Made by a program: the position numbers and the translations under genes. A stretch of 39,504 nt of DNA. Origin: Scytonema hofmannii PCC 7110. Its GTDB lineage: Bacteria > Cyanobacteriota > Cyanobacteriia > Cyanobacteriales > Nostocaceae. Below are positions 1 through 39,504 of this stretch, in pieces (within the stretch, counting starts at the first letter, position 1; every line of letters begins with the position of its first letter). Under the pieces are notes generated by a model that was not told the DNA's origin, did no database searches, and was given only the letters and a program-made list of their open reading frames with translations. The stretch covers positions 3,739,845 to 3,779,348 of the forward strand of contig NZ_KQ976354.1 of assembly GCF_000346485.2 (NCBI RefSeq), written 5' to 3'.

Positions 1-29
1 CTACCCCCTACCCCCTATCCCCTATTTTC
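1..29 (+). repeat. In-frame heptamer tandem repeat in an A domain
   Basis: Four tandem 7-mers of the form CTACCCC, CTACCCC, CTATCCC, CTATTTT read in frame as a Pro/Thr/Ser-rich stretch directly before core A7. They occupy the same loop (between A6 and A7) that carries G-rich or AT-rich repeats in other A domains here. The left end is cut by the window, so the full copy number is unknown. Confidence 0.7.
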
Positions 30-2081
30 AAAACCGGAGATTTGGCACGTTACTTGCCAGATGGTAGTATAGAATACCTGGGACGCATCGACAATCAAGT
101 GAAAATCCGGGGATTCCGCATTGAGTTGGGAGAAATTGAAGCGGTGCTGAGCCAACACGAGCACGTGCAAGCCTGTTGTGCGCTCGCACGCGTTGATAGT
201 CCTGGGGATAAACGCCTGGTCGCCTACGTCGTACCGCACCCACAAGCAACACCAACAAGTAGCAAACTGCGGCAATTCCTGAAAACCAAGCTACCAGAGT
301 ACATGGTACCCAGTGCGATTATGTTCTTGGAGTCCCTACCCCTGACTCCTAACGGCAAAGTAGACCGTCGCGCCCTACCAGTCCCAGAATCACGTGCAGG
401 AATAGAAGTCTCTTTCATAGCACCCCGCACTCCAGTGGAAGCCAAATTAGCACAAATTTGGTCGCAAGTGCTGAGAGTCGATGTAGGTATACACGATAAT
501 TTCTTTAGCTTGGGAGGAGATTCTATTATCAGCATTCAAATCATCGCCAAAGCAAAACAAGCGGGAATAGAACTGACTCTCAAACAACTGTTTGCCAATC
601 CAACCATAGCGGAATTAGCGACTGTTGTAGATACAACAACATCACTTTCCATCGAACAAAGACTAGTTACAGGAACATTGCCATTAACACCCATTCAACA
701 GTGGTTTTTTGAACAGCAATTCCCACAACCGCACCACTTTAATCAATCATTTTTATTCACAGTTCCATCCAATATTAATATCGAGTTTTTAGAGCAAGTT
801 TGGAAAGAATTACTCAAACATCATGATGCTCTGCGCTTGCGATTTACACAGACACAGTCGAATTGGCAAGCCATTCATGCAGAACCGAGCGATCGCCAGA
901 TCGTATCCAGTTTTGACTTAAGGACATTAACACACAGCGAGCAAACAACTGCTATTGAAAATACCGCTAATGCCTTACAAGCGAGTTTGGATTTATCAGA
1001 AAATCTGGTGCAAGTGGCACTATTCCAACTAGGAATTAACCAACAAGCACGATTACTGATTGTAATTCATCACTTAGTAGTAGATGGTGTATCCTGGCGG
1101 ATTTTATTAGAAGATTTGCAAACAGGATACGCGCAACTGATTGCAGGTCAAAGCATTCAACTGCCAAACAAAACTACCGCCTTCAAAGATTGGGCGCAAC
1201 AACTGAGAGAATACGCTGTGAGCGATCGCCTCACATCAGAACTGAATTATTGGTTAAGTGCATCCTCTTCCGAAGTCGCTTCCATCCCAGTAGACCGTGC
1301 AAATGGAGAAAACACAGTTGCATCAGCTCATATAATATCGGTGTCATTAAACTCTGCTGAAACTCAGTCCCTGTTGCAAGAAGTCCCAAAAGCTTATAAC
1401 ACTCAAATTAACGATGTGTTGTTAACAGCTTTAGTTTTAGTTTTAAACAGATGGACTGACTCAAAATCGGTGTTATTCAATTTAGAAGGACATGGGCGAG
1501 AAGAAATTCTTGATGGTGTTGATTTATCACGCACCGTAGGTTGGTTTACAACGATGTTCCCAGTGGTTTTAAAACTCTCAGCAATAGAATTAAACAATCT
1601 CGAGCGGGCATTAAAATCGGTCAAGGAACAATTACGAGCCATTCCCAATAAAGGCATAGGCTACGGCTTATTGCGTTATTTGAATCAAGACGCCGAAATT
1701 CACTCCCAACTTGCCACAATTCCTACTCCAGAGATTAGCTTCAATTATCTGGGTCAATTTACGCAAGTTGTGAATACAGAGTCTTTGACATCGCCAGCAA
1801 GCGAGTCGAGCGGACAAAGTCAAAGTTTACAAGGTCAGCGTGCAAATCTGCTAGACATTAACGCCATTATTACAGACGAACAGCTACAAATACATTGGAC
1901 ATACAGCAGCAATATCCACGAGCAAGCAACAATTGAGTCTATTGCTCAAGAATTTGTCTGCAAGTTGCAAGATATTATTGCTCATTGTTTAGAGCCAGAA
2001 AATACTGGTTTTACACCAACAGATTTCCCATTGCTCGAATTTAATCAGTCAGAATTGGATCGGATCTTAGGAAATTTATGA
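1..2081 (+). CDS. NRPS, 3' end: A (C-terminal part)-T-E
   Basis: The gene runs in from the left edge; codons are in phase from base 3, so a TTG at 42 is internal and not a start. The visible part opens in the adenylation domain just before core A7 (FKTGDLARY), then A8 (GRIDNQVKIRGFRIELGEIE) and A10 (NGKVDRRAL, about 350-375). A carrier domain follows (LGGDS about 510-525). An epimerization domain runs from about 670 to 2060, with HHLVVDG, EGHGRE and the VGWFT region. The variant LGGDS in place of LGGHS is usual for carriers that feed an E domain. The substrate code lies upstream and cannot be read. The E domain means this module delivers a D-residue to the next protein, whose first C domain is of the DCL-like subgroup. 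The stop overlaps the next start (ATGA at 2078-2081), suggesting translational coupling. If the laxaphycin A reading holds, this residue would be D-Leu7; that is inference. Confidence 0.97.
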   Translation, partial: TPYPLSPIFKTGDLARYLPDGSIEYLGRIDNQVKIRGFRIELGEIEAVLSQHEHVQACCALARVDSPGDKRLVAYVVPHPQATPTSSKLRQFLKTKLPEYMVPSAIMFLESLPLTPNGKVDRRALPVPESRAGIEVSFIAPRTPVEAKLAQIWSQVLRVDVGIHDNFFSLGGDSIISIQIIAKAKQAGIELTLKQLFANPTIAELATVVDTTTSLSIEQRLVTGTLPLTPIQQWFFEQQFPQPHHFNQSFLFTVPSNINIEFLEQVWKELLKHHDALRLRFTQTQSNWQAIHAEPSDRQIVSSFDLRTLTHSEQTTAIENTANALQASLDLSENLVQVALFQLGINQQARLLIVIHHLVVDGVSWRILLEDLQTGYAQLIAGQSIQLPNKTTAFKDWAQQLREYAVSDRLTSELNYWLSASSSEVASIPVDRANGENTVASAHIISVSLNSAETQSLLQEVPKAYNTQINDVLLTALVLVLNRWTDSKSVLFNLEGHGREEILDGVDLSRTVGWFTTMFPVVLKLSAIELNNLERALKSVKEQLRAIPNKGIGYGLLRYLNQDAEIHSQLATIPTPEISFNYLGQFTQVVNTESLTSPASESSGQSQSLQGQRANLLDINAIITDEQLQIHWTYSSNIHEQATIESIAQEFVCKLQDIIAHCLEPENTGFTPTDFPLLEFNQSELDRILGNL

Positions 2082-5000
2082 AACTAGAACTTAGTAAAAA
2101 TAATCGACAAAATATTGAGGATATGTATCCCCTATCGCCGATGCAAGAGGGGATGCTGTTTGAAAGTTTGTATACTCCTAATTCCGGAGTCTATTTTGAG
2201 CAGATAATTTGTAAGTTCACAGGAAACCTGAATGTTAAAGCCTTTGAACGAGCTTGGCAAATGGTGGTAGCACGTCATTCTGTTTTCCGCACGGCTTTTA
2301 TTTGGGAGTCTTTGAACAAGCCAATTCAAGTCGTGTATCGACAGGTTCAAGTCACTGTTAACACCATTGACTGGCGCAAGTTAACAAAAGTGGAGCAGCA
2401 AGCGCAATTAGAGACTTTTCTTTCTTCTGAACAACAGCAGGGCTTGCAACTTTCTCAAGCACCATTGATGCGCTTACACTTGCTGCATTTGGATGAATTA
2501 ACTTATCAGTTTGTTTGGTGTTTTCATCATATTTTACTTGATGGCTGGTCGTTACCGTTGGTGTTTCAAGATTTATTTGAGTATTATCAAGCCATCGCTG
2601 ATGGTGTAAATGTAGCGTTACAGCCAACAAGAAGCTATCGTAACTACATTGCTTGGTTACAACAACAAGACCTCAATTCAGCTAAAGAATTTTGGCGACA
2701 AAAACTCCAAGGTTTTAGCGCTCCCACGCCACTCACTGTCGATAAACCATTATCAAACAGAGAGCATTCTCGTTATGGCGATCGACAAATACACTTAACT
2801 CCAAGTACAACTTCACAAGCGGTAGATTTTGTCAAGCAGCATCAATTGACAATGAATAATTTGGTGCAGGCAACTTGGGGATTGCTGTTATCTCGTTACA
2901 GCCAAGAAACCGATGTGGTGTTTGGTGCGACGGTGTCCGGTCGTCCCCCCGGATTGCTTGGTGTCGAATCGATGGTGGGGTTATTTATCAATACGGTACC
3001 AGTCCGCTTGCAAATTTCCCCAGAAACGAGTTTGCTAGATTTGTTAAAAGATTTACAAGCACAACAGGTAGAATCAACACAATTTTCCTATTGCTCGTTG
3101 GTAGAAATTCAGGGTTTGAGTGATGTTCCCAGAGGCACGTCTTTATTTGAGAGCATTGTCGTGTTTGAGAATTATCCGGTGGATACTGATGCTCTACAAG
3201 ACAGTAGCGGTTTGACGGTTGAGAATTTTCCAGGAATTGAACACACGAATTATCCCCTGACAATTATAGCTGTCCTTGATGAGCAATTGTTGCTCAAGGT
3301 GAGCTACGATACAACTCGATTTGAGCTAGAGACGATTGAGCGGATGCTGGGTCATTTTGTGACACTCCTTGAGGCAATTGTAGCAAATCCACAGCAAAGA
3401 ATTTCTCAATTGCCATTGCTAACAGCATCCGAGCAACACCAGTTATTAGTGGAGTGGAATGAGACATCTGTAGACTATCCCCACGATAAGTGCATTCATC
3501 AGTTATTTGAGGAGCAGGTGGCGCGTACCCCGGATGCAGTCGCGGTGGTGTATGAAAATCAACGACTGACATATGGTGAATTGAACTGTCGTGCAAACCA
3601 GTTAGCACACTACTTGCAATCTTTGGGAGTGGGAGCGAACGTGCTGGTGGGTATTTGTGTGGAGCGAGCCTCCGTAGGAGGAGCTTCGCTAACGCTCTTA
3701 ATGGTAGTAGGACTGTTGGGTATTCTCAAGGCGGGGGGGGCTTATGTACCACTCGATCCAGAGTATCCCAGCGAGCGTTTAGCTGCGATGGCAGAAGATG
3801 CTCAGATATCAGTGCTGTTGACGACAGAGAAATTAGCCACTCGTATCCCTTATCGAGGACGTGTCATTTGCTACGAACGCGATTTCGCAGAACTCACACT
3901 CCAAAGCCAGGAGAACCTTACACCGGAAGTCAGAGCCGATGGTCTGGCTTATGTCATCTACACTTCAGGTTCTACGGGAAAACCCAAAGGAGTAAGCGTG
4001 ACTCACCAAGGGGTGAATCGTTTGGTGATGAACACAAATTACATTCACATCGAACCACTCGATGTGATCGCACAAGCCTCAAATTACGCCTTTGACGCGG
4101 CGACTTTTGAGATTTGGGGAGCGTTACTTCACGGAGCGCGGCTCATAGGTGTGAGCAAAGAGGTGGCGCTGTCGCCTTCATATTTCGCCGCCTTAATTCG
4201 AGAGCAAGGCATCAGCGTGTTATTCTTGACAACAGCTTTGTTCAATCAAATTGCCCAAGTCGCACCTTCGGCGTTCAATTCACTGCGGTATCTTCTGTTC
4301 GGAGGAGAGGCTGTCGATCCGAAATGGGTGCAAGAGGTGCTGAAACACGGTAGACCGCAACGACTGCTGCACGTATATGGACCAACAGAGAATACAACAT
4401 TTACGTCCTGGTACTTAGTGCAGGATGTGCCCAAAGACGCAACAACGATTCCCATTGGGAGACCGATCGCCAACACGCTGCTTTACATTTTAGACAAGTC
4501 CCTGCAACCAGTACCTATAGGAGTGCCAGGAGAATTGCACATTGGCGGTGAGGGATTGGCAAGAGGCTATCTCAACCGTCCCGAATTGACACAAGAGAAA
4601 TTCATCCCCAACCCCTTTAGAAAAAGCAGGGGCGTAGGGGCGCAGGGGTGCAGGGTCCTCAAGGAAGACCAATCCTGTTCTGAACGCCTTTACAAAACAG
4701 GTGACTTAGCACGTTATTTACCAGATGGTAATATAGAATACCTAGGGCGAATTGACAATCAGGTAAAAATTCGGGGCTTCCGCATTGAGTTGGGTGAAAT
4801 CGAGGCAGTCCTGAGCCAACACGAGCACGTGCAAGTCTGTTGTGCGATCGCACGCGTTGACACACCAGGAGACAAGCGCTTAGTCGCATATATTGTACCG
4901 CACCCACAGCAGATACCCACAGTCAGCGTTTTGCGTAGCTTTCTCACCAAAAAGTTACCAGAATACATGGTACCAAGTGCAATAGTCATTTTGGAGTCCC

Positions 5001-8000
5001 TTCCGCTCACTCCCAATGGTAAAGTAGACCGTCGCGCCTTAAAAGCACCAGAGCCAAGTCGCGAACTATCCGACAAATTTGTTGCACCTCGCACCCCGAT
5101 AGAAGAAATGCTGGCACTTCATTGGGCACAAGTACTGAAAGTAGAGCTTGTCGGCAGAAATGATAACTTCTTTGAGATGGGAGGACACTCCTTACTGGCA
5201 ACGCAACTGGTTTCGCGCATCCGCAAGATTTTCCAAGTAGAACTGCCCTTGCGGAGCATATTTGCCAGACCAACATTAGCCGAATTGGCGCAAGAGATAC
5301 AGCAGTTACAGCAACAGGACGTAGAACTTGCTGACTCGCCCATCTTACCAAGAGCAGAAAATGCAGAATTACCACTGTCATTTGCACAACAGCGGTTGTG
5401 GTTTTTGGATCGGTTAGAACCTCTAAGTGCCTCATACAATATTCCAGCAGCTTTGCGCTTGCAAGGAACTCTGTGTGTTGCTGCTTTAGAAAAAAGCTTA
5501 GTTGAAATTATTCATCGCCATGAAGCATTACGTACCAATTTCATCACAGTCGATGGCAAAGCAACTCAGTTAATTCATACAAACCCAAATTGGAAAGTAT
5601 CAGTTGTTGACTTGAAGCACTTACCTTCGAGCGAACAAGAAATAGCTGCTAAGCAACTAGCGCGACTTCACGCAATTGAACCTTTTGACTTAACAACTGA
5701 AGCTTTAATCAGAGCAACATTAGTTGTGCTGTCTCAAACAGAACACGTGTTATTGGTGTGTATGCACCACGTTGTCTCGGATGGCTGGTCAATAGGTGTG
5801 TTTGTGGCGGAATTCACAACACTGTACAACGCTTATTGTGAAGGTAAGCCTTCACCCTTGTTGCCACTGCCAATTCAGTACGCGGATTTTGCCATTTGGC
5901 AACGACAATGGTTGCAAGGAGATGTACTACAAAGCCAATTGAATTACTGGCTTCAACAACTGACTGATGCACCGACATTCCTGCCATTACCCACAGACAG
6001 ACCCAGAGGTGCGGTGCAAACCTTCAATGGGGCATATCTTGAGTTTGCACTTTCGGTGGAACTGACTCAAAAACTGACACTTCTGAGCCAGGAACAAGGA
6101 TGTACTCTCTTTATGACCTTGTTAGCGGCATTTAATACATTACTCTACCGCTACACGGGACAAGCAGACATTTTGGTAGGGTCGCCCATCGCCAACCGCC
6201 ATCGCAGTGAAATCGAATCTTTAATTGGCTTTTTTGTTAACACATTAGTTTTCCGTACAGATCTCTCAGGCAATCCCAGCTTTAACGAGTTACTCTTACG
6301 GATTCGGTCGATGGCATTATCGGCGTATGCACACCAAGATTTACCGTTTGAAATGCTTGTGGAAGCATTACAGCCAGAAAGAGACCTGAGCCATACACCA
6401 TTGTTCCAGGTGATGTTCGTTCTTCAAAATGCGCCCACATCAGTTGTCGAGTTAACTGGGTTAACGGTGAGTTCATTGCCCATAGAAACCACCACAGCAA
6501 AGTTTGACCTTACCTTATCCATGGAGAATACGCCCACAGGACTCGTGGGAGCATGGGAGTACAACACGGACTTGTTCGATCGCCTCACCATTGAGCGGAT
6601 AGCAAAGCATTTTATGACACTGCTAGAAGCTATTGTGACAAATCCCGGCGAGCGGATTTCGCAATTGCCATTGTTAACAGAATCTGAACAACAGCAATTA
6701 TTGGTGGAGTGGAATGATACACTGCAAGACTATCCCCAAGATAAGTGTATCCATCAATTATTTGAGGAGCAAGTAGTGCGTACACCCAATGCAGTCGCAG
6801 TAGTGTATGAAAATCAACAACTGACTTACAACGAGTTGAACTGTCGTGCCAATCAGTTGGCGCACTACTTGCGGTCTAGTGGAGTGAGAGCAGGTGTGCT
6901 GGTGGGCATTTGTATGGAGCGCTCTGTGTCCATGGTGGTGGGGTTGTTGGGTATTCTCAAAGCTGGTGGTGTCTATGTGCCACTAGACCCAGAATATCCC
7001 ACTCAGCGTTTGGTAGCGATCGTCGAATCCGCTCAAGTTTCCGTGCTGTTGACCGCAGACACATTCGCCACCGCTCTCCCCCAACAGCAAGCGCGTGTCA
7101 TTTGTTACAATACCGCTTCCCCAGAACTTGCCTGCCAAAGCGAGGAAAACCCAACACCACAAGCCAGTGCTGATGCTCTGGCTTATGTCATCTACACGAG
7201 CGGTTCCACAGGACAACCCAAAGGTGTCAGCGTCACTCACCAAGGGGTAACTCGTTTGGTGATGAACACAAATTACATTCACATCGAAGCGTCTGACGCG
7301 ATCGCACAAGCCTCAAATTACGCCTTCGATGCTGCTACTTTTGAAATTTGGGGAGCGCTACTTCATGGGGCGCGACTGTTTGGGGTGAGCAAAGAGTTGG
7401 CGCTCTCACCAATAAATTTTGCCGCCAGTATTCGCGAGCAAGGGATAACGGTGTTATTCTTGACAACTGCTTTGTTCAATCAAATTGCCCAAGCAGTACC
7501 CAACGCTTTCAATCCACTGCGCTATCTTTTGTTTGGCGGCGAGGCTGTCGAGCCAAAATGGGTGCAACAAGTGCTGAAAAATGGCGCACCGCAACGACTG
7601 CTGCACGTTTACGGACCGACAGAGAATACAACGTTTAGTTCCTGGTACTGGGTGCAAGATGTCCCCAAAGACGCCACAACCATTCCTATTGGGCGACCGA
7701 TTGCCAACACACAAATCTACATTTTAGACGAATACCTCCAACCAGTACCTGTGGGTGTACCGGGAGAACTGCATATTGGCGGTGCGGGATTGGCAACAGG
7801 CTACCTCAACCGCTCAGAATTGACAGCAGAGAAATTCATCACCAACCCATTTAACAATCCAAAATCCCAAATCCCAAATCCCAAATTATACAAGACGGGA
7901 GACCTAGCACGTTACTTAAGCGATGGTAATATAGAATACCTAGGACGCATTGACAATCAAGTAAAAATTCGAGGCTTCCGTATTGAGTTGGGGGAAATTG

Positions 8001-17292: not shown

Positions 17293-17300
17293 TCTTTCAA

Positions 17301-25505: not shown

Positions 25506-25571
25506 GCAGAGAATGCTCTTGATGCGGGAGCATCCCGATTTGGCATATTGCCCTCAAAATAGAATTCTCTT

Positions 25572-25645
25572 GCTATACAAACAAAGTCAGAAAGGTAAGA
25601 ACTTTGTTTGTATAGCCCCGATTTCTAATCGCGGGCGTGTTTTTT
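25572..25645 (+). terminator. Hairpin and T-run after the ABC transporter
   Basis: A perfect 16-bp stem, GCTATACAAACAAAGT (25572-25587) and ACTTTGTTTGTATAGC (25601-25616), with a 13-nt loop. A second, bulged CCCGAT/ATCGCGGG stem follows at once and leads into GTGTTTTTT (ending about 25646). The second stem plus T-run has the form of an intrinsic terminator. The position, 66 nt after the ABC stop, fits. Confidence 0.6.
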
Positions 25646-26173
25646 CCAATTATTGGCTTCATTTAACTTAAATAATTTACAAGTATCTACACATAAGTAC
25701 ACGTATTTTTGTTAAGCTAAATTTGACAGATTTTGAATCCGTTTGCTTCAGTGCTCGCCACACTCCCCAATCAGCGATCGCCGGTTGAAAAAAATTTTGG
25801 GTTTACCGATCAAATCCAGGTAAATTGTTGTACCATCAGTAGTGTCTAAATTAAAACAAAACTCAAGAGTCAAAAGTTAGTTGTCAAAATCAATCAATTA
25901 GGGATTTGACTGCTATTCTAGAAGCGCCACCAAATCTTCTTTTGGAGACATTACGCGAACAATTTTGGTGGGGGATTTAAACCTCTCTATTCATGCCCCA
26001 ATCGCACAGAATTCATTCGCTTATTCTGGTTCCTGGCTCCTGAATTCTTGTTAAAGCGCAAAGATTTTAAGTAACCATAATGGACGAAATCGTTAAAAAA
26101 TTGTTAAAAAACAGGTTGGGCTGGGTCTTCTTGGCGTAGTTATGATGATTCTCACTGTGGTATCAGAAGGTAG

Positions 26174-26271
26174 TTCAGCCAAGGAATTGAATTTCTACTC
26201 CGCCTACTGACCCTCTCTGCAAAAAGTGAGCAGTCTGTGTCTGGTCAAAACAATTATGTTGAAGGAGAATT
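26174..26271 (+). pseudogene. Relic of a PKS KS-AT linker (5' part of an AT-ACP-AMT-like gene)
   Basis: An open frame reading GIEFLLRLLTLSAKSEQSVS lies directly before the second NRPS. It matches EIERSLHLLTLSAKSEQALS near the N-terminus of the AT-ACP-AMT protein. At nucleotide level 26203-26246 agrees with about 17366-17409 at roughly 34 of 44 positions, counted by eye. The frame is closed upstream by TAG at 26171 and ends in TGA at 26273-26275, overlapping the NRPS ATG. No AT follows. The simplest reading is the remnant of a deleted or partly copied PKS gene that once preceded this NRPS. Confidence 0.65.
26262..26267 (+). promoter_or_regulatory. Ribosome binding site of the second NRPS
   Basis: AAGGAG lies 4 nt before the ATG at 26272. 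It fixes the start and places the docking domain at the extreme N-terminus. Confidence 0.7.
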
Positions 26272-26440
26272 ATGAATCTAACAGAGCTGCTAGAAAATCT
26301 TTCAGCAAAGAATGTAGAACTGTGGATTGAGGGGGACAAGCTGCGTTACCGAGGACCAGAAAACGCACTCAGCCCGGAGTTATTAGCTTCAATGAAGCAA
26401 TACAAACCAGAAATTCTCCGAATTCTATCCCAGAGCAGCG
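26272..26440 (+). other. TubC_N-like docking domain
   Basis: About 55 residues with the pattern LLxxLxxxxVELWIEGDKLRY, then ALSPELLASMKQYKPEIL. This is the signature of the TubC N-terminal docking domain, which binds a short C-terminal motif of the upstream protein. A candidate partner in the window is the C-terminal tail of the AT-ACP-AMT protein (GGFLPKHSVKPPEAVKH), which is unproven. Confidence 0.85.
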
Positions 26441-29400: not shown

Positions 29401-32400
29401 AAATCTGTCGCGCCACGCACCCCCACGGAAGAAATGCTGGCACAAATTTGGGCACAAGTGCTGAAAGTAGAGGCTGTGGGCAGACACGATCGCTTCTTTG
29501 AGCTAGGAGGACACTCGCTACTGGCAACGCAACTGGTTTCGCGCATCCGCAGCGTTTTTAAAGTCGAACTGCCATTACGGAGCTTATTTGTCACACCAAC
29601 AGTAGCGGAGTTAGGGCAACAGATACAGCAGTTACAGCAACAAAATGCACAACTCAATGACACTCCCATCTTACCAAGGTTAGAGAGTGCAGAACTCCCA
29701 CTTTCATTTGCACAACAGAGGTTGTGGTTCTTAGACCAATTAGAGCCAAACAAGCCTTCATACAATATTCCAGCTGCTTTGCGCTTGCAAGGAACTCTGT
29801 GTGTTGCTGCTTTAAAACAAAGCTTAGTGGAAATTATTCATCGCCACGAAGCATTACGCACTAATTTCATTACAGTCGATGGACAAGCAACTCAACTGAT
29901 TCACCCAAACCCAAATTGGAAAGTCTCAGTGCTTGACTTGCAGCAGTTACCTTCGAGCGAACAAGAAACAACTTCACAGCAATTAGCTCAACTTCAAGCA
30001 ATTGAACCTTTTGACTTAGCAACTGAAACCTTAATCCGAGCAACATTAGTCCTGTTGTCTCAAACAGAACACGTGTTATTGGTGTGCATGCACCACATTG
30101 TCTGTGATGGCTGGTCAATAAGTGTGTTTGTTGAGGAACTGGCAGCATTGTACAACGCTTATTGTGAAGGTAAGCCCTCACCGTTAGCACCACTGCCAAT
30201 TCAGTACGCAGATTTTGCCATCTGGCAACGACAATGGTTGCTTGGCGAAGTCCGGCAAAGTCAATTGAGTTACTGGCTTCAACAACTGGAGTACGCACCG
30301 ACATTCCTGCCATTACCCACAGACCGACCCAGAGGCGCGGTACAATCTTTCGCAGGGGCATCTCAAACGTGTACACTTTCGGTGGAACTGACTCAAAAAC
30401 TGACACTCCTGAGTCAGGAACAAGGGTGTACTCTCTTTATGACCCTGTTAGCAGCATTTGATACGTTACTCTACCGCTACACGGGTGTGGCGGACATTTT
30501 GGTAGGGTCGCCCATCGCCAACCGCCATCGCAGCGAAATCGAAGGATTAATTGGCTTTTTTGTCAACACATTAGTTTTGCGTGCAGATCTTTCAGGTAAT
30601 CCCAGCTTTAACGAATTACTCTTACGGATTCGGTCGATGGCGTTGTCGGCGTATGCCCATCAAGATTTACCATTTGAAATGCTTGTGGAAGCATTGCAAC
30701 CAGAAAGAGACCTGAGCCATACACCATTGTTTCAGGTGATGTTTGCCCTCCAGAATGCACCTACATCAGTTGTCGATCTCACTGAGTTAACTCTGAGTTT
30801 ATTGCCCGTAGAAACTGCCACAACCAAGTTCGATCTGACTTTATCTATGGAGAATACGCCCACAGGACTTGTGGGAGAGTGGGAGTACAATACGGACTTG
30901 TTTGATGGCAGCACGATTGAGCGGATGAGCAGTCATTTTGTGACACTACTGGAAGCGATTGTGGCAAATCCCAGCGAGCAGATTTCGCAATTGCCACTGC
31001 TGACACTAACGGAGCAACAGCAGTTATTGGTGGAGTGGAATGATACAAGGGTAGACTATCCCGTCGATAAGTGTATCCATGAGTTATTTGAGGAACAAGT
31101 AGCACGTACCCCGAATGCCGTGGCAATCGTGTTTGAAAATCAACAACTGACTTATGGTGAATTGAACTCTGATGCCAACCAATTAGCGCATTACTTGCGC
31201 TCTCGTGGAGTGGGAGCGAATGTGCTCGTAGGCATTTGTGTAGAGCGCTCAATCGAAATGGTTGTAGGACTTTTAGGCATTCTCAAGGCAGGCGGGGCTT
31301 ACGTACCACTTGACCCGGAATATCCCACTGAACGCCTGAGCTTCATGTTAGAAGATGCCCAAGTTTCCGTGCTGTTGACCCAACAGCATCTTGTGGAGAA
31401 ATTCCCATCACATCAAGCACAAGTTGTGTGTTTAGAGACTCAGTGGCAGGTGGGGTCTCAGTTCTCTGGAGAGAACCCTACCACGGTTGTACGCGCAACT
31501 GATTTGGCTTATACCATCTACACCAGTGGTTCCACAGGAACGCCCAAGGGAGTGCCCATCGCCTATGAAGCATTGTTAAATTTAGTGTTCTGGCATCAGC
31601 GAACTTTTGAAATCGCTTCATCCGATAGAGCTACCCAACTGGCTGGAACAGGATTTGACGCGGCGGTGTGGGAAATTTGGCCTTACCTGACCGTAGGTGC
31701 AAGCCTCTACTTAGTCAAATCCGAACTCGTCACCGAGCCTGTGAATTTGCAACAGTGGTTGATCGACAACAAGATTACCATCACTTTTGTACCGACACCA
31801 GTGGCTATTGAGTTGTTATCTTTGGAATGGAAGACCCAAAATTTAGCATTGCGTTATCTGCTCACGGGAGGGGATAAGCTGCATCAATATCCATCCGCCT
31901 CAGTGCCGTTCTCAGTTGTAAATAATTATGGACCGACAGAGAATACAGTGGTCACAACTTCTGGGCAGATAGTTGCGCGGGAGCAATTGCAGACATCGCC
32001 TCCGATTGGACGCCCGATTGCCAACACACAAGTCTACATTTTAGATAAACATCTGCAACCAGTACCAATTGGTGTACCGGGAGAATTACACATTGGCGGT
32101 GCTTCCTTGGCAAGAGGCTATCTCAACCGCCCTGAATTGACACAAGAAAAATTCATCCCCAACCCCTTGAGAAGAAGCAGGGGAGCACAGGAGCACAGGA
32201 GCTGGGGAGTGAAGGAAGACCAATCCTGTTCTGAACGCCTTTACAAAACAGGTGACTTAGCCCGCTTCTTAAGCGATGGCAACATCGAATACTTGGGTCG
32301 GATCGACAATCAAGTGAAAATTCGGGGCTTCCGCATTGAGTTGGGTGAAATCGAGGCAGTCCTGAGCCAACACGAGCACGTACAATCATCCGTGGTTGTC

Positions 32401-35400
32401 GCACGCGTTGACATTCCTGGAAATAAACGCCTGGTGGCCTACATCGTACCGCAAAAACACGTAAGACCTACACTGAACGAACTGCGTAGTTTCCTCAAGG
32501 AAAAGCTACCAGACTACATGGTACCTTCCGTACTTGTGCTCCTGGAATCCCTACCCTTGACCCCCAATGGCAAAGTAGACCGCCGCGCCTTACCAATTCC
32601 AGAATCACGCACGGGAATAGAAGACAAGTTCGTCGCACCCCGCACGCCAGTAGAAGCCAAATTGGCAGAAATTTGGGCACAAGTCCTCAGAGTCGAAGCT
32701 GTCGGTATACATGATAACTTCTTTAGCTTGGGGGGAGATTCCATCCTCAGCATTCAAATTATTGCCAAAGCAAAACTCGTTGGGATAGAACTCAGCCTCA
32801 AACAACTGTTTGCCAATCAAACCATCGCCGAATTAGCCACAGTCGCTCTGACAACAAAAGCACTTTTCATAGAACAAGGACTTGTTACTGGGGCATCACC
32901 TTTAACACCCATTCAACGATGGTTTTTTGAGCAGCAATTGCCACAGCCGCATCATTTTAATCAATCATTTTTGCTCACAGTTCCCACTGATATTAAGATT
33001 GAGTTCTTAGAGGTGGTGTGGAAGGAATTACTCAAACACCACGATGCTCTGCGCTTGCGGTTTACACAAACAGAATCGAATTGGCAGCAGGTTCATGCCG
33101 AGCTTTGCGATCGCAATATCATATCCTGTTTTGACTTCTCAACACTCCCTGATAGCGAGCAACAAAGGGCGATAGAAAACACCGCCAATTCGCTACAAGC
33201 GAGTTTGAATTTATCAGAAAATTTGGTGCAAGTGGCATTATTCCGTTTGGGAGTTGACAAAGGAGCACGATTACTCATCATCATTCACCACTTAGTGGTA
33301 GACGGAGTGTCCTGGCGGATTTTATTAGAAGATTTGGTCGCGGGATACTCACAGCTGTGCCAAGGTAAAGTCATTCAACTTCCAGCCAAAACCACTTCAT
33401 TCAAAGATTGGGCGCAACACCTCAGAGAATATGCCCAAGCAAATCACCTCAAATCAGAACTGGATTATTGGTTGAGTATATCTAACGCCGCAGTGGCTTC
33501 CATCCCAGCAGACCATGCTCATGGAGCCAATACAGTGGCGTCTACTTGCACAGTCTCAGTGTCATTAAACTCCAGTGAAACGCAAGCGCTGCTGCAAGAT
33601 GTGCCGAAAGCGTATAAAACTCAAATTAACGATGTTTTATTAACAGCTTTAGTGCTGGCTGTCAGCCGATGGGTTGACTCAAAGTCGGTGTTGTTTAACT
33701 TAGAAGGACACGGGCGAGAAGATATTATTGAAGGTGTGGATTTATCACGCACCGTCGGTTGGTTTACGACAATGTTTCCAGTGGTTTTAAAACTCTCAGA
33801 TACAGAGAATCTGGGCCAGGTTTTAAAATCAGTCAAGGAACAATTACGGGCAATTCCCAACAAAGGCATCGGTTACGGTTTATTGCGCTATCTCAATCAA
33901 GACGCCGTTCAAAGTGGTCAACTTGACAAAGTTCCAAAGGCTCAGATTAGCTTTAATTATCTCGGTCAATTTACTCAAGTTCTCAACAGAGAGTTTCTGA
34001 TATCGCTGGCAGATGAATCAAGCGGAAAAGACCAAAGCTTACAAGGTCAGCGCTCAACTTCGTTAGACATTAACGCCGTCATTGCAGACCAACAGCTACA
34101 AATACATTGGACATACAGCCGCAATCTCCACGCGCAGACAACCATCGAACATCTGGCTTCAGAATTTGTCTGTGAGTTGCAAAATCTGATTGCTCATTGT
34201 TTAGAACCGGACAATGTCGGTTACACACCCACAGATTTTCCACTGATCCAACTCGACCAGTCAGAACTGGATCTCATTTTAGCAAAAGTAGCATCCAACG
34301 TACAACAGAGTCAAATTCATTGGCAAAATCTTGAGGATATTTATTCGTTATCGCCGATGCAGGAAGGGATGCTGTTTGAAAGTTTGTACGCTCCCGACAC
34401 AGGCGTCTATTTTGAGCAGATCGCTTGCACCTTTGCAGGAAACCTTAACGTCCGAGCTTTCGAGCAAGCTTGGCAGATGGTGGTAGCACGGCATTCCATC
34501 TTCCGCACGGCTTTTGCCTGGGAGTCTTTAAGTACCCCCGTGCAAATCGTGTATCGACAGCTAGATGTTAGTATTAATACTTTAGACTGGCGAGGGCTAA
34601 CGAAAACTGAGCAGCAAGCACAACTAGAGACTTTTTTGGATGAGGAGCAAAAACAGGGTTTCCAACTCCATCAAGCGCCATTGATGCGGCTACATCTGCT
34701 GCGATTGGATGAGAACACTTATCAATTTGTTTGGTGTCATCATCACATCTTACTTGATGGCTGGTCGTTACCGTTGGTGTTTCAAGACTTGTTTGTCTGT
34801 TATCAAGCCATTTGTGATGGGGAAAGTGTATCCTTACCAGCAACTGTCAACTACCGCAACTATATTAGTTGGTTACAGCAACAAGATTTAAATTCTGCCA
34901 AAGAATTTTGGCAACAAAAACTCTTTGGTTTTAGCGCTCCTACACCGTTGAGAGTCGATAAACCACTCTCACAACGGCAACAGCATTCTCGTTATGATGA
35001 ACAACACATTCACTTATCCGCGCTCGCAACTTCACAAGTCGTGGATTTTGTCAAACAACATCAATTGACACTAAATAATTTGGTGCAGGTGAGTTGGGGA
35101 TTGCTCCTCTCGCGCTACAGTGGTGAAACCGATGTGGTGTTTGGTGCCACCTTATCTGGTCGCCCCCCCACGCTCCTCGGTGTGGAGTCGATGGTGGGGA
35201 TATTTATCAATACAGTGCCCGTGCGCTTGCAGATCTCCCCCAACACCGATCTGCTGAGTTTGTTGAAAGATTTACAAACCCAACAGGTGGAATCCGAAGA
35301 ATTTTCCTACTGCTCATTGGTTGAGATTCAGGGCGTGAGTGACATTCCCAGGGGTACACCTTTATTTGAGAGCATTGTCGTATTTGAGAATTATCCCGTA

Positions 35401-38400
35401 GATACGGCTGTTCTGGAAAACAATGGCAGTTTGACGCTCTCTAATTTTTGGGGAATTGAACACACGAATTATCCCCTCACGGTTGTCGCTATCCCTGGCG
35501 AGCAATTGTGTCTGAAGGTGAGCTACGATACCAATCGATTTGAACGAGGGACAATAGACCGAATGTTGGGGCACTTTGTGACCTTGCTGTCGGCGATTGT
35601 CACCAATCCACATCAACCGATTGAGCAATTGCCCCTGCTGACAGCATCTGAGCAACAGCAGTTATTAGTGGAGTGGAACGATACTCAAGTAGACTATCCC
35701 GTTGATAAGTGTATCCATCAGTTGTTTGAGGAGCAGGTGGCGCGTACCCCGAATGCCGTGGCGGTTGTTTTTGAAGAACAACAACTGACTTACTATGAGT
35801 TAAATAGCCGTGCCAACCAGTTAGCCCATGAGTTGCACTCGTTGGGAGTGGGCGCGGATGTACTGGTAGGCATTTGTGTGGAGCGTTCCTTGTCTATGGT
35901 TGTGGGACTTTTGGGCATTCTCAAGGCGGGAGGGGCTTATGTGCCACTTGACCCAGAGTATCCCCAAGAACGCCTGAGCTTCATGGTGCAAGATGCTCAA
36001 CTCTCAGTGCTGGTGACTCAACAGCATCTTGTTGAGAGACTACCCGAACACACAGCTTGCCTTGTGTATTTAGAGACTCAGCATCAAGAACCGTTTCAAA
36101 CTCAGACCATTCCTTTTGTAGCTGAGGTCAAGTCATCCAATCTAGCTTATGTACTCTATACCTCCGGCTCTACAGGTAAACCAAAGGCGGTCGCGATCGA
36201 GCATCACAGTGCAGTTGCTCTGGCGAGTTGGGCCAAAGAAGTTTTTACACCAGAGCAGCTTGCTGGTGTCTTAGCTTCTACCTCTATCTGTTTTGACCTC
36301 TCAGTCTTTGAATTGTTTGTGACTCTTAGTGTGGGAGGAAAAGTGATTGTAGCTGAAAATGCTTTGCGTTTATTCAGCATACCAGCTGCAAACCAAGTCA
36401 CTTTGATCAACACAGTTCCTTCTGCGATCGCACAGTTAATTCGAGAACAGGACTTACCACAGCAACTATGTACAGTGAATTTAGCTGGGGAAGCTCTGCA
36501 AAATCAACTGGTGCAGCAAATTTATCAGCACAGTCAAACTGAGCGTGTATTAAATCTCTACGGTCCATCGGAAGACACTACTTACTCTACCTATAGCTCC
36601 ATCGAAAAAGGGGCAAGCACCGCACCGACCATTGGGCGACCGATCGCAAATACACAAGTTTACATTCTAGACTCGCACCTGCAGCCAGTACCTGTGGGTG
36701 TGCCAGGAGAATTACACATTAGCGGTGCGGGATTGGCAAGAGGCTACCTCAACCGTCCCCAATTGACAGCAGAAAAATTCATCCCCAACCCCTTTAGAAG
36801 AAGCAGGGGCGCAGGGACGCAGGGGCGCAGGGTCCTCAAGGAAGACCAATCCTGTTCTGAACGCCTTTACAAAACAGGTGACTTAGCGCGTTACTTAAGC
36901 GATGGCAACATCGAATATCTAGGACGCATCGACAACCAGGTAAAAATTCGGGGCTTCCGCATTGAGTTGGGTGAAATTGAGGCAGTCCTGGGTCAAAACG
37001 AGTATGTGGAATCATCTGTAGTCATTGCCCGTGAAGATATCCCAGGGGATCTTCGCCTCGTCGCCTACATCGTACCGCTTCCACAGGTGACACCCACACT
37101 CAGCGTTCTGCGTAGCTTCCTTAGCAAAAAGCTGCCAGAGTATATGGTGCCAAATGCTTTTGTGTTCCTCGAAGCCCTACCACTCACTCCTAACGGCAAA
37201 GTAGACCGTCGCGCTTTACCCACACCAGATAGACACAGCGAACTCCCAGAAAAATATGTTGCCCCACGTACCGCTACGGAAGAAATGCTGGCACAACTTT
37301 GGGCACAAGTGCTGAAAGTAGAGGCTGTGGGCAGACACGATAACTTTTTTGACCTGGGAGGACACTCGCTACTCGCAACGCAACTGGTTTCGCGCATCCG
37401 CAGCGTTTTCAAAGTCGAACTCTCGTTACGGAGCTTATTTACGACACCAACAGTAGCGGAGTTAGGGCAACAGATACAGCAGTTACAGCGACAAAATGCG
37501 GCACTTAATGAAACGTCCATCTTACCAAGGTCAGAGAGTGCAGAACTCCCACTTTCATTTGCACAACAGAGGTTGTGGTTCTTAGACCAATTAGAGCCAA
37601 ACAAAGCTTCATACAATGTTCCAGCCGCTTTGCGTTTGCAAGGAAACCTTTGTGTCACCGCTTTAGAACAAAGCTTAGTGGAAATTATTGACCGTCACGA
37701 AGCATTACGTACCAATTTCATTACAGTCGATGGACAAGCAACTCAACTGATTCACCCAAACCCAAATTGGAAAGTCTCAGTGGTTGATTTGCAGCACTTA
37801 CCTTCCAACGAACAAGAAATAGCATCACAGCAATTAGCTCAACAGCAAGCGATTGAACCTTTTGACTTAGCAACTGAAGCCTTAATCAAAGCAACATTAG
37901 TCGTGCTGTCTCAAACGGAACACGTGTTATTAGTGTGCATGCACCATATTGTCTGTGATGGCTGGTCAATAGGTGTATTTGTTGAGGAACTGGCGGCATT
38001 GTACAACGCTTATTGTGAAGGTCAACCCTCACCGTTAGTACCACTGCCAATTCAATACGCAGATTTTGCCATTTGGCAAAGACAATGGTTCCAGAATGAA
38101 GTCCGACAAAGCCAATTGAGTTACTGGCTTCAACAACTGGAGTACGCACCAACATTCTTGCCATTACCTACAGATAGACCCAGAGGCGCGGTGCAAACCT
38201 TCGCAGGCGCATATCAAAAGTTCGCACTTTCGGTGGAACTGACTCAAAAACTGATACACCTGAGTCAGGAACAAGGGTGTACTCTCTTTATGACGTTGTT
38301 AGCAGCATTTGATACGTTACTTTCCCGTTACACGGGTGTGGCGGACATTTTGGTAGGGTCGCCCATCGCCAACCGCCATCGCAGTGAAATCGAATCTTTG

Positions 38401-39504
38401 ATTGGCTTTTTTGTCAATACATTAGTATTACGCACAGACCTATCGGGCGATCCCAGCTTTAATGAATTACTGACTCGCATTCGGTCGATGGCGTTGTCGG
38501 CGTATGCACATCAAGATTTACCGTTTGAAATGCTTGTGGAAGCATTGCAGCCAGAAAGAGACCTGAGCCATACACCATTGTTTCAGGTAATGTTTGACCT
38601 CCAAAATGCGCCCACATCAGTTGTCGAGCTAACCGGGTTAAGGGTGAGTTCATTGCCCATAGAAACAGCCACGACCAAGTTCGATCTCACCATTACGATG
38701 GAGAACACGCCCACAGGACTTGTGGGGGGATGGGAGTATAACACGGACTTGTTTGATGGCAGCACCATTGAGCGGATGATTGGGCATTTTGTGACCTTAC
38801 TGGAAGCGATTGTGGCAAATCCCAACGAGCAGATTTCGCAATTGCCACTGCTGACACTAACGGAGCAACAGCAGTTATTGGTGGAGTGGAATGATACAAG
38901 GGTAGACTACCCCGTTGATAAGTGTATCCATGAGTTATTTGAGGAGCAAGTAGCTCGTACCCCAAATGCTGTGGCGATCGTGTTTGAAAATCAACAACTG
39001 ACTTATAGTGAGTTGAACTCTCGCGCCAACCAGTTAGCGCATTACTTGCGCTCTCGTGGAGTGGGAGCGAATGTGCTCGTAGGCATTTGCGTGGAACGTT
39101 CTTTGTCCATGGTGGTAGGACTGTTGGCTATTCTCAAGGCGGGAGGAGCTTACGTGCCACTCGATCCGGAATATCCCCAAGATCGCCTGAGCTTCATGTT
39201 AGAAGATGCCCAAGTTTCCGTGCTGTTGACCCAACAGCATCTTGTGGAGAAATTCCCATCACATCCGGCACAAGTTGTGTGTCTAGATACTCATTGGCAG
39301 TTGGTGTCTCAGTTCTCTGGGGAGAACCCTGCCACGGTTGTACGCGCAACTGATTTAGCTTATACCATCTACACCAGTGGTTCCACAGGAACACCTAAGG
39401 GAGTGCCCATCGCCTATGAAGGATTGTTAAATTTAGTGTTCTGGCATCAGCGAACTTTTGATCTCGCTTCATCCGATAGAGCCACACAACTGGCTGGAAC
39501 AGGA
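26272..39504 (+). CDS. NRPS with TubC-type docking domain (C-A-T, C-A-T-E, C-A-T, C-A...), 3' end outside
   Basis: The frame is open from ATG 26272 to the window end, 4411 codons so far. Approximate residues: TubC_N-like docking domain 1-55 (ELWIEGDKLRYRGPENALSP), C1 60-507 (H192-H193..D197-F198-W), A1 510-1033, T1 1047-1117 (S1082), C2 1140-1580, A2 1597-2117, T2 2123-2190, E 2203-2673, C3 2683-3127 (DCL-like), A3 3143-3653, T3 3667-3730, C4 3757-4200, A4 from 4217, cut soon after core A3. By-eye codes give Val, Leu (with E, so D-Leu), Ala and a fourth resembling the Leu domains. This matches residues 2-5 of laxaphycin B-type lipopeptides, which start Val - D-3-OH-Leu - Ala - 3-OH-Leu after a beta-amino fatty acid. 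The docking domain and unusual C1 fit reception of the chain from the AT-ACP-AMT protein. Lines sampled along the gene are in one frame with no stop. Confidence 0.95.
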   Translation, partial: MNLTELLENLSAKNVELWIEGDKLRYRGPENALSPELLASMKQYKPEILRILSQSSDGSASYPLSQGQKALWFLYQLAPESSAYNITYAAKLVTNLEISALEQAAQALVERHPVLRTTFTTIDGEPVQTVHKHQPVDFSVENAFALSPDDINDWLLQTSACPFNLEVGPLLRWRVLINHTPTPEQILLITQHHIITDFWSSEIMLDELKVLYEALTKDTEPLLPVHKCEYRDYLNWSAEMLSGSKGESLWNYWRQQLCGELPVLNLPTDRPRPHSQSYRGDSLFFRLEEKLQQSLTQLAKKKRASLYMVLLTALQILLFRYTSQEDILIGSPMVNRRRLEFEKILGYFTNPVVLRANLSGNPSFEELLGRTRLCVLDALEHQEYPFPLLVERLQPVRDPSYSPLYQVAFAWDRPHQSGEESLTNSDGLVVESITTPIKGAAFDLTLSILHESEALTGTWNYNSDLFERITIERMSGHFVTLLEAIVANPGERISQLPLLTASEQQQLLVEWNQTLADYPHDKCIHQLFEEQVERTPNAVALVYENQQLTYGELNCRANQLAQYLRSLGVGTGVLVGICVQRSLSMVVGLLGILKAGGAYVPLDPDYPTERLSFMLEDARISVLLTQQSLLNKLPQHQTIVVGLDTDWQLISQSTQDNPISEVQATDLAYVIYTSGSTGQPKGVEVIHRGVNRLLFGVDYVHLDATQKWLQMASISFDASTFEIWGALLHGGLCVIFPESIPTAKNLSEAIDKHGITVVWLTAALFNAIVDENVQALSGIRQLLIGGEALSVAHVHRALEKLPSTQIINGYGPTESTTFTCCHPLGKQLQRNIESIPLGRPIANTQVYILDKYLQPVPVGVPGELHIGGAGLARGYLNRPQLTAEKFIPNPLRRSRGAQEHRSRGVKEDQSCSERLYKTGDLARFLSDGNIEYLGRIDNQVKIRGFRIELGEIEAVLGQNDDVQSSCVIAREDTPGDKYLVAYIVPLPQVTPTLSVLRSFLIEKLPEYMVPNAFVFLEALPLTPNGKVDRRALPTPDRHSGLPEKSVAPRTPTEEMLAQIWAQVLKVEAVGRHDRFFELGGHSLLATQLVSRIRSVFKVELPLRSLFVTPTVAELGQQIQQLQQQNAQLNDTPILPRLESAELPLSFAQQRLWFLDQLEPNKPSYNIPAALRLQGTLCVAALKQSLVEIIHRHEALRTNFITVDGQATQLIHPNPNWKVSVLDLQQLPSSEQETTSQQLAQLQAIEPFDLATETLIRATLVLLSQTEHVLLVCMHHIVCDGWSISVFVEELAALYNAYCEGKPSPLAPLPIQYADFAIWQRQWLLGEVRQSQLSYWLQQLEYAPTFLPLPTDRPRGAVQSFAGASQTCTLSVELTQKLTLLSQEQGCTLFMTLLAAFDTLLYRYTGVADILVGSPIANRHRSEIEGLIGFFVNTLVLRADLSGNPSFNELLLRIRSMALSAYAHQDLPFEMLVEALQPERDLSHTPLFQVMFALQNAPTSVVDLTELTLSLLPVETATTKFDLTLSMENTPTGLVGEWEYNTDLFDGSTIERMSSHFVTLLEAIVANPSEQISQLPLLTLTEQQQLLVEWNDTRVDYPVDKCIHELFEEQVARTPNAVAIVFENQQLTYGELNSDANQLAHYLRSRGVGANVLVGICVERSIEMVVGLLGILKAGGAYVPLDPEYPTERLSFMLEDAQVSVLLTQQHLVEKFPSHQAQVVCLETQWQVGSQFSGENPTTVVRATDLAYTIYTSGSTGTPKGVPIAYEALLNLVFWHQRTFEIASSDRATQLAGTGFDAAVWEIWPYLTVGASLYLVKSELVTEPVNLQQWLIDNKITITFVPTPVAIELLSLEWKTQNLALRYLLTGGDKLHQYPSASVPFSVVNNYGPTENTVVTTSGQIVAREQLQTSPPIGRPIANTQVYILDKHLQPVPIGVPGELHIGGASLARGYLNRPELTQEKFIPNPLRRSRGAQEHRSWGVKEDQSCSERLYKTGDLARFLSDGNIEYLGRIDNQVKIRGFRIELGEIEAVLSQHEHVQSSVVVARVDIPGNKRLVAYIVPQKHVRPTLNELRSFLKEKLPDYMVPSVLVLLESLPLTPNGKVDRRALPIPESRTGIEDKFVAPRTPVEAKLAEIWAQVLRVEAVGIHDNFFSLGGDSILSIQIIAKAKLVGIELSLKQLFANQTIAELATVALTTKALFIEQGLVTGASPLTPIQRWFFEQQLPQPHHFNQSFLLTVPTDIKIEFLEVVWKELLKHHDALRLRFTQTESNWQQVHAELCDRNIISCFDFSTLPDSEQQRAIENTANSLQASLNLSENLVQVALFRLGVDKGARLLIIIHHLVVDGVSWRILLEDLVAGYSQLCQGKVIQLPAKTTSFKDWAQHLREYAQANHLKSELDYWLSISNAAVASIPADHAHGANTVASTCTVSVSLNSSETQALLQDVPKAYKTQINDVLLTALVLAVSRWVDSKSVLFNLEGHGREDIIEGVDLSRTVGWFTTMFPVVLKLSDTENLGQVLKSVKEQLRAIPNKGIGYGLLRYLNQDAVQSGQLDKVPKAQISFNYLGQFTQVLNREFLISLADESSGKDQSLQGQRSTSLDINAVIADQQLQIHWTYSRNLHAQTTIEHLASEFVCELQNLIAHCLEPDNVGYTPTDFPLIQLDQSELDLILAKVASNVQQSQIHWQNLEDIYSLSPMQEGMLFESLYAPDTGVYFEQIACTFAGNLNVRAFEQAWQMVVARHSIFRTAFAWESLSTPVQIVYRQLDVSINTLDWRGLTKTEQQAQLETFLDEEQKQGFQLHQAPLMRLHLLRLDENTYQFVWCHHHILLDGWSLPLVFQDLFVCYQAICDGESVSLPATVNYRNYISWLQQQDLNSAKEFWQQKLFGFSAPTPLRVDKPLSQRQQHSRYDEQHIHLSALATSQVVDFVKQHQLTLNNLVQVSWGLLLSRYSGETDVVFGATLSGRPPTLLGVESMVGIFINTVPVRLQISPNTDLLSLLKDLQTQQVESEEFSYCSLVEIQGVSDIPRGTPLFESIVVFENYPVDTAVLENNGSLTLSNFWGIEHTNYPLTVVAIPGEQLCLKVSYDTNRFERGTIDRMLGHFVTLLSAIVTNPHQPIEQLPLLTASEQQQLLVEWNDTQVDYPVDKCIHQLFEEQVARTPNAVAVVFEEQQLTYYELNSRANQLAHELHSLGVGADVLVGICVERSLSMVVGLLGILKAGGAYVPLDPEYPQERLSFMVQDAQLSVLVTQQHLVERLPEHTACLVYLETQHQEPFQTQTIPFVAEVKSSNLAYVLYTSGSTGKPKAVAIEHHSAVALASWAKEVFTPEQLAGVLASTSICFDLSVFELFVTLSVGGKVIVAENALRLFSIPAANQVTLINTVPSAIAQLIREQDLPQQLCTVNLAGEALQNQLVQQIYQHSQTERVLNLYGPSEDTTYSTYSSIEKGASTAPTIGRPIANTQVYILDSHLQPVPVGVPGELHISGAGLARGYLNRPQLTAEKFIPNPFRRSRGAGTQGRRVLKEDQSCSERLYKTGDLARYLSDGNIEYLGRIDNQVKIRGFRIELGEIEAVLGQNEYVESSVVIAREDIPGDLRLVAYIVPLPQVTPTLSVLRSFLSKKLPEYMVPNAFVFLEALPLTPNGKVDRRALPTPDRHSELPEKYVAPRTATEEMLAQLWAQVLKVEAVGRHDNFFDLGGHSLLATQLVSRIRSVFKVELSLRSLFTTPTVAELGQQIQQLQRQNAALNETSILPRSESAELPLSFAQQRLWFLDQLEPNKASYNVPAALRLQGNLCVTALEQSLVEIIDRHEALRTNFITVDGQATQLIHPNPNWKVSVVDLQHLPSNEQEIASQQLAQQQAIEPFDLATEALIKATLVVLSQTEHVLLVCMHHIVCDGWSIGVFVEELAALYNAYCEGQPSPLVPLPIQYADFAIWQRQWFQNEVRQSQLSYWLQQLEYAPTFLPLPTDRPRGAVQTFAGAYQKFALSVELTQKLIHLSQEQGCTLFMTLLAAFDTLLSRYTGVADILVGSPIANRHRSEIESLIGFFVNTLVLRTDLSGDPSFNELLTRIRSMALSAYAHQDLPFEMLVEALQPERDLSHTPLFQVMFDLQNAPTSVVELTGLRVSSLPIETATTKFDLTITMENTPTGLVGGWEYNTDLFDGSTIERMIGHFVTLLEAIVANPNEQISQLPLLTLTEQQQLLVEWNDTRVDYPVDKCIHELFEEQVARTPNAVAIVFENQQLTYSELNSRANQLAHYLRSRGVGANVLVGICVERSLSMVVGLLAILKAGGAYVPLDPEYPQDRLSFMLEDAQVSVLLTQQHLVEKFPSHPAQVVCLDTHWQLVSQFSGENPATVVRATDLAYTIYTSGSTGTPKGVPIAYEGLLNLVFWHQRTFDLASSDRATQLAGTG
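26449..29620 (+). other. NRPS module C-A-T, predicted Val; atypical C domain
   Basis: The C domain is clearly diverged from the other C domains here and has HHIITDFWS, with Phe in place of the Gly of HHxxxDG. The by-eye A code is D-A-F-W-L-G-G-T-F-K, close to known Val codes. The carrier motif region reads DRFFELGGHSLL. An unusual donor, a beta-amino acyl chain, would explain the distinct C type; this is inference. Confidence 0.8.
28942..29015 (+). repeat. G-rich A6-A7 loop insert, copy 4
   Basis: Encodes LRRSRGAQEHRSRGVKEDQ in the same loop. The G-runs are interrupted (GGGGAGCACAGGAGCACAGG), so it does not fit the quadruplex pattern. Otherwise it has the same length and 3' part as the other copies. 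Confidence 0.8.
29690..34290 (+). other. NRPS module C-A-T-E, predicted D-Leu
   Basis: The by-eye A code is D-A-W-F-L-G-N-V-V-K (Leu), identical to the Leu module of the first NRPS. The epimerase has HHLVVDG (about 33286-33306) and EGHGRE (about 33700-33720). In laxaphycin B-type peptides this position is a D-configured 3-hydroxy-Leu. Confidence 0.85.
32167..32240 (+). repeat. G-rich A6-A7 loop insert, copy 5
   Basis: Nearly identical to copy 4 (LRRSRGAQEHRSWGVKEDQ), also with interrupted G-runs. The pair suggests recent exchange between neighbouring modules. Confidence 0.8.
34320..37460 (+). other. NRPS module C-A-T, predicted Ala
   Basis: A DCL-type C domain follows the epimerase. The by-eye A code is D-L-F-N-N-A-L-T-Y-K, which I recall as the Ala code of microcystin synthetase. 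The specificity core (about 36060-36620) differs strongly from neighbouring A domains while the flanks are near-identical to them. Confidence 0.82.
36793..36866 (+). repeat. G-rich A6-A7 loop insert, copy 6
   Basis: Encodes FRRSRGAGTQGRRVLKEDQ. Four G-runs with 4-nt spacers are present (about 36806-36832). It is closest in form to copy 1. Confidence 0.8.
37540..39504 (+). other. NRPS module C-A(partial), probably Leu
   Basis: A complete LCL-type C domain, then an A domain cut after DRATQLAGTG, just before the first specificity residues. The sequence from core A3 onward (GTPKGVPIAYEGLLNLVFWH) is almost identical to the two Leu A domains at about 11850 and 31540, so Leu is likely but the code itself is not visible. 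Confidence 0.65.

Follow-up and report, generated by a model that had tools for sequence, protein, structure and literature searches.

Do two NRPS lines draw on one beta-amino fatty acid starter? The question is raised by the window analysed here, a stretch of 39,504 nucleotides at positions 3,739,845–3,779,348 of the 12,293,081-bp genome of Scytonema hofmannii PCC 7110, in which the end of one NRPS line and the head of another enclose a PKS protein. The locus itself is not new. The window is the middle of the already published scytocyclamide (laxaphycin) lxa cluster for two antifungal lipopeptides. Heinila et al. 2020 (PMC7524897) reported it for this strain, whose draft genome ANNX02 measures 12.3 Mb, at 3,716,086–3,812,822. 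One ORF starts exactly at 3,716,086 and another ends exactly at 3,812,822. The identification follows from this coincidence of the printed limits with ORF ends, from the position of the window inside them and from the order of 21 modules, which fits. Coordinates, genome size, gene and residue order, epimerases, N-methylation and the single starter are the same in the published cluster and in the locus described here. The initial annotation mentioned that a shared PKS had been proposed for laxaphycins in Scytonema; that proposal was made for this very locus and strain (PMC7524897), so that the match is one of identity and not an independent second case. According to the same source, both scytocyclamide types are produced by PCC 7110, as documented by LC-MS, and both bear the same Aoa. 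The observation is confirmed and its interpretation supported, but published already for this locus. What is added here is a two-member acceptor class, remnants of ketosynthase (KS) sequence, a relative with unlinked lines and gene breaks at runs of N. The shared starter, a published exception to NRPS/PKS colinearity, rests on gene content. Its logic becomes testable through the twin heads, the KS remnants and the relative whose lines are unlinked, which also show how, in nature, an existing starter may acquire a second assembly line.

Domains were located by profiles built from the locus itself and by Pfam. All genes of the window lie on the plus strand, and the ORFs, domains and their order are as first described. 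The window opens with the C-terminal end of LxaC (1–2081; gene start outside the window), which comprises the end of an A domain, T and the epimerase (E) of the D-Leu7 module. LxaD (2078–17254), an NRPS of 5058 aa, ends the 11-residue line with Ile8, D-allo-Ile9 (E), Leu10, Gly11 and a terminal thioesterase (TE; 16436–17212; PF00975, E 9.2e-28). The epimerase of its second module (D-allo-Ile9; 8543–9850) carries the motifs HHLVVDGVSWRIL and EGHGRE, both of which are also present in the E domains of the second LxaI module and of the LxaC end. LxaE (17301–20786; 1161 aa) is the beta-amino fatty acid PKS, with AT (17634–18488), ACP (18810–19010) and a class III aminotransferase (AMT; 19563–20639). 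Downstream lie two cupin_8 oxygenases, namely LxaF (21086–21976), a putative Leu/Asn hydroxylase as proposed in PMC7524897, and its tandem paralogue LxaG (22010–22927; 79% identical), followed by the ABC exporter LxaH (23718–25505). Thus, ORF and domain searches recovered the aminotransferase PKS, the two putative hydroxylases and the exporter that had been placed between the two NRPS. The description of LxaE as a PKS protein holds for its AT, ACP and aminotransferase, but the protein contains no ketosynthase. LxaI (26272–39504, its first 4411 codons) heads the 12-residue line with Val2, D-Leu3 (E), Ala4 and the start of the Leu5 module, and runs past the window. It begins with a TubC_N docking domain (26281–26433; PF18563), near-identical to that of LxaC, followed by the first C domain (26458–27738), which forms a class of two with the first C domain of LxaC. 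The epimerase of the second module (D-Leu3) is at 32896–34203, and the first part of the Leu5 A domain (38950–39504) stops with the window, where a 10-N assembly gap follows. Such gaps border the window on either side (3,739,835–44 and 3,779,349–58 of the genome), each inside a Leu A domain. The gaps between lxaE, F, G, H and I (20787–26271) contain no ORF longer than 100 aa, so that neither ORF1 of PMC7524897 nor a LxaN-like prolyl hydroxylase, as mentioned in the review PMC8471579, is evident in the window. No tRNA was found in the window by ARAGORN. A dispersed repeat is present in two copies of opposite orientation (59 nt, 93%) at 20867–20925 and 23378–23436, flanking lxaF–G; a 161-base query containing one of the copies has 41 matches in the genome, self included.

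Pocket codes were read against what we take to be the GrsA anchor, and the meanings of all codes other than those of Leu and Hse are presumed. The Leu and Hse meanings are those given in PMC7524897. LxaD reads C-A(DAFFLGVTFK, Ile)-T / C-A(same code, Ile)-T-E / C-A(DAWFLGNVVK, Leu)-T / C-A(DILQLGLIWK, Gly)-T-TE, and LxaI reads docking-C-A(DAFWLGGTFK, Val)-T / C-A(DAWFLGNVVK, Leu)-T-E / C-A(DLFNNALTYK, Ala)-T / C-A(cut). The end of the upstream NRPS had been annotated as Ile, D-Ile, Leu, Gly and TE, with which the codes, the E position and the PF00975 TE agree. For the downstream start, annotated as Val, D-Leu, Ala and a Leu-like residue, the first three stand; the fourth is unreadable in the window, its A domain being cut before the pocket. 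This Leu5 A domain lies in two halves at the N gap, and the second half, beyond the window, reads FLGNVVK (7 of the 10 letters, the first three missing), which fits Leu. Over the full locus, LxaC–D give Gln, Thr (at the Dhb position), Pro, Hse, Phe(E), Leu(E), Ile, Ile(E), Leu, Gly and TE, matching the published 11-residue order Gln-Dhb-Pro-Hse-D-Phe-D-Leu-Ile-D-Ile-Leu-Gly-TE. LxaI–L give Val, Leu(E), Ala, Leu(E), Gln, Ile (its module bearing a methyltransferase insert), Asn(E), Thr, Pro, Leu(E), Thr and TE, matching the published 12-residue order Val-D-Leu-Ala-D-Leu-Gln-NMeIle-D-Asn-Thr-Pro-D-Leu-Thr-TE. Together the two lines comprise 21 modules (19 with full codes, one with 9 letters and one with 7), 7 E domains, one methyltransferase insert and 2 TEs, the code with 9 of 10 letters being that of NMeIle. 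The proposed laxaphycin A-type end and B-type start are borne out by the codes, E positions and N-methylation of the full locus, which fit scytocyclamide A and B (PMC7524897, Table 3), and across the 21 modules the specificity reading agrees with both peptides of the published cluster. The same residue mostly has the same code (five Leu, one of them at 7/10; three Thr; two Gln; three Ile, one of them at 9/10), and this recurrence supports the residue reading without recourse to presumed meanings. The two Pro domains differ in code (DAHFIAHVVK versus DVQFMAHVVK). The third C domain of LxaC is an outlier, with at most 28% identity to the others, in line with its published role in making Dhb (PMC7524897). 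In substance nothing differs from that paper, but two details deviate: the broken Leu pocket (-FLGNVVK) belongs to position 5 by the codes read here and to position 3 there, and the Leu code is found in five domains here (D-Leu7 included), whereas four are named there.

The starter set FAAL-ACP (LxaA), KS (LxaB) and AT-ACP-AMT (LxaE) is present in the locus, LxaA and LxaB being located 20–24 kb upstream of the window. The interval 3,712,000–3,820,000 contains one FAAL, one KS and one LxaE (FAAL matches below 45% identity were dropped, since A domains match weakly); in place of a separate complete starter PKS for each line, there is this single set. We consider it highly probable (roughly 0.92) that in the lxa locus one beta-amino fatty acid starter set feeds both NRPS lines. 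LxaA would load hexanoate, as in PMC7524897, and LxaB and LxaE would extend it and set the beta-amino group, yielding 3-aminooctanoyl on the ACP of LxaE. Two NRPS heads would accept this one starter, LxaC for the 11-residue line, closed by the TE of LxaD, and LxaI for the 12-residue line; the two heads are alike in their TubC_N docking domain and in the special class to which their first C domain belongs. LxaF and LxaG would hydroxylate Leu/Asn residues, and LxaH would export. In this scheme, LxaE would transfer Aoa to both heads.

Relatives were sought with LxaE in 388 genomes of the order, 247 of which have a match at E ≤ 1e-100. At the family level, 217 genomes were covered with two queries: the LxaI head matches in 26 of them at E ≤ 1e-150, and LxaE in 79 at E ≤ 1e-200. 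In five genomes, here called G330, G282, G292, G385 and G511, the loci were read fully or partly, and up to 20 kb was read around the other head matches. G330 carries both lines and one LxaE; its Ser and Tyr pocket codes are those that we take to specify these residues. The line orders of G330 read as heinamide A and B according to the review PMC8471579, and its gene order and both residue orders fit the heinamide cluster as given there. That cluster, from Nostoc sp. UHCC 0702, is like lxa in having one PKS starter, 11- and 12-residue lines and cupins (PMC8471579). Compared with lxa, the heinamide-type cluster of G330 has a reversed line order, fewer proteins per line and the FAAL outside the cluster. 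In G282, the region at 490–535 kb contains FAAL, KS, a B-type line, LxaE and two cupins, and a one-protein line at 88–125 kb has the order Hse, Thr, Pro, Hse, Phe(E), Leu(E), Ile, Ile(E), Leu, Gly, TE, which is the laxaphycin A order. This laxaphycin-A-type line is 365 kb away from the only full-length LxaE of the genome; a search of 70–140 kb yielded neither a KS or LxaE relative (E ≤ 1e-8) nor a FAAL with at least 45% identity. In the whole of G282, LxaE is matched four times at E ≤ 1e-20, once at full length, and FAAL twice at E ≤ 1e-40. Its B-type line (G282:C1:515679-531218) lacks the Leu5 and Gln6 modules and is predicted to make a 10-residue peptide, although near-identical modules may have collapsed in the assembly. 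G385, which is related to G282, is fragmented: it has two heads, each on a contig of its own, and one LxaE of full length.

The loci of the two remaining genomes are incomplete. LxaE of G292 (81%) lies beside a line cut by record ends, with Val(E), Gln, N-MeIle and Asn at one end and Gly-TE at the other. Its description as a 'mini-laxaphycin' was withdrawn because the Asn A domain breaks off at profile position 303 and the C domain that follows starts only at 371, so that sequence is missing between the record ends. In G511, one contig carries a Leu-Gly-TE end, two cupins and T-KS-AT-T-AMT, and a second contig carries a Val-Pro-Val(E)-Thr-TE end; as a side observation (contigs C356 and C377), the counterparts of LxaB and LxaE are fused there as one T-KS-AT-T-AMT protein. 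G511 was not upheld as a further double-line genome, since its assembly is too broken to join the lines and the head on C356 is a candidate laxaphycin head. Among the full-length LxaE matches listed, compared by eye, the frame is 1160–1212 aa in PCC 7110, G292, G282, G385 and G330 and longer in others. Clusters of the puwainaphycin/minutissamide type share with lxa a FAAL start and a PKS with aminotransferase, whereas their starters are, to our knowledge, each dedicated to one NRPS line. Puwainaphycin is named as analogous in the review PMC8471579.

The heads of the two lxa lines form an acceptor class of their own. The TubC_N docking N-termini of LxaC and LxaI are 92% identical over the first 50 alignment columns, and the C domains that come first in the two proteins share 84% identity, against no more than 45% with any of 18 further C domains of the cluster (a set without the Thr12 C domain, which is interrupted by N). 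Along the head modules, identity is 74–92% through docking, C and the start of A, 24–55% in the specificity core and 72–88% afterwards. Since the drop is confined to the A core, the two acceptors resemble copies of one module that differ in this core. The corresponding pair of first C domains in G330 is 98% identical. The degree of identity is not special in itself: in a control covering the clusters of PCC 7110, G330 and G282, the most similar pairs within the remaining C and E classes are 86–100% identical, so that neither 84% nor 98% counts by itself, and only the exclusive two-member class does. Homogenisation is thus general in these clusters, and strong head identity was rejected as proof of special co-evolution. 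In G282, the two heads share only 75% identity, whereas pairs from other domain classes of that genome are up to 100% identical; this counts against the reading proposed here. The TubC_N domain is not unique to the two heads, as LxaK also begins with it, and a search of LxaE for a C-terminal docking tail found no TubC_N partner motif; five LxaE tails align up to ...GGFLP(K/Q) and then diverge. As a mark of laxaphycin heads, HHxxxDF (versus HHxxxDG) was discarded: among 39 rows, DF is found in 21 and DL in 2, with 16 unmatched by the pattern, and DF marks a wider class. The word 'docking' has no occurrence in PMC7524897 or PMC8471579, and our literature search found no paper combining 'laxaphycin' with 'docking domain'.

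How the second head arose is suggested by the head phylogeny and by KS remnants. In a tree of 39 heads, the pair of PCC 7110 are sisters (100/99), as are those of G330 (100/100); the heads of G282 and G385 pair by line, the A heads with 100/100 and the B heads weakly with 89/69. Decayed KS pieces covering LxaB 1–123, 119–265 and 397–446 lie 0.3–1.4 kb upstream of the B head in G330, and in G511 a KS fragment (LxaB 127–257, 85%) immediately adjoins a head of this class on its upstream side. Given these remnants in two genomes, it is quite possible, if at somewhat less than even odds, that the head of a second NRPS received a copy of a KS-docking-C segment and that the copied KS then decayed. 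The remaining starter would serve the duplicated acceptor in trans, even where the lines are unlinked. The DNA of the G330 heads is 97–100% identical in 9 of 10 steps of 150 bases from −111 to about 1.4 kb (89% in the remaining step) and 41–55% identical in the A-domain core. Upstream, the KS stretches are 77–93% identical in those steps from −1500 to −561 that align, and then 50–58% up to −111. This patchy alignment, together with the candidate status of the G511 head, weakens the copying scenario, and later gene conversion could also account for the pattern. The general homogenisation of domains in these clusters speaks against copying, as do the two places where no KS trace was found, namely upstream of the LxaI head of PCC 7110 and near the A line of G282.

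Whatever the origin of the heads, the starter might not be common at all, one line being fed in trans by another beta-amino fatty acid PKS. Two extra sets outside the locus keep such a separate supply open in principle in PCC 7110. The likelier source is the pair at 9.376–9.384 Mb (G000:C1:9375609-9383964, G000 being PCC 7110), where a FAAL (698 aa) and a KS-AT-T-AMT protein (1645 aa; T corresponding to the ACP) form an orphan beta-amino fatty acid PKS; the surrounding 50 kb that were read (9.345–9.395 Mb) yielded no NRPS. The second set, at 2.087–2.100 Mb (G000:C1:2087472-2100063), consists of a FAAL and a single protein KS-AT-ACP-AMT-C-A(DLYNLSLIWK)-T-TE, and so ends in its own C-A-T-TE; its code, which we take to be that of Cys, suggests a beta-amino fatty acyl-cysteine product. 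However, G282 has both line types and no second set, with one full-length protein among its four LxaE matches, and none of the 23 LxaE matches in G330 is a second protein with both AT and this AMT. The head class is, moreover, the same in both lines, and both peptides contain the same Aoa (PMC7524897). We regard a separate supply as improbable. That the locus should belong to a related lipopeptide pathway with similar ends, and not to laxaphycins, is far less probable still and can hardly be entertained: the broad head-domain class does occur in other PKS/NRPS pathways (at E ≤ 1e-150 it is present in 26 of the 217 genomes, and many of these pathways have a different residue order), but the coordinates coincide with those of the published cluster and the 21 modules fit the scytocyclamides. 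One starter set feeding both lxa lines is the reading that we retain.

The relatives also bear on the published gene boundaries of the 12-residue line. LxaI and LxaJ are divided inside the Leu5 A domain by the 10-N gap (3,779,349–3,779,358), and LxaK and LxaL in the Thr12 module by a gap of 2,482 N (3,806,954–3,809,435). At the points where lxaI/J and lxaK/L break, the proteins are continuous in G330 and G282; G330 has the modules for positions 2 to 7, six in all, on a single protein of 7826 aa, and those for positions 9–12 on a single protein of 5046 aa. Because both borders coincide with runs of N and the G330 proteins are continuous, the published LxaI/LxaJ and LxaK/LxaL breaks are probably assembly effects. 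On the other side of the cluster, just upstream of lxa, many further NRPS condensation domains are found at G000:C1:3639216-3697605, where a second large NRPS cluster seems to adjoin.
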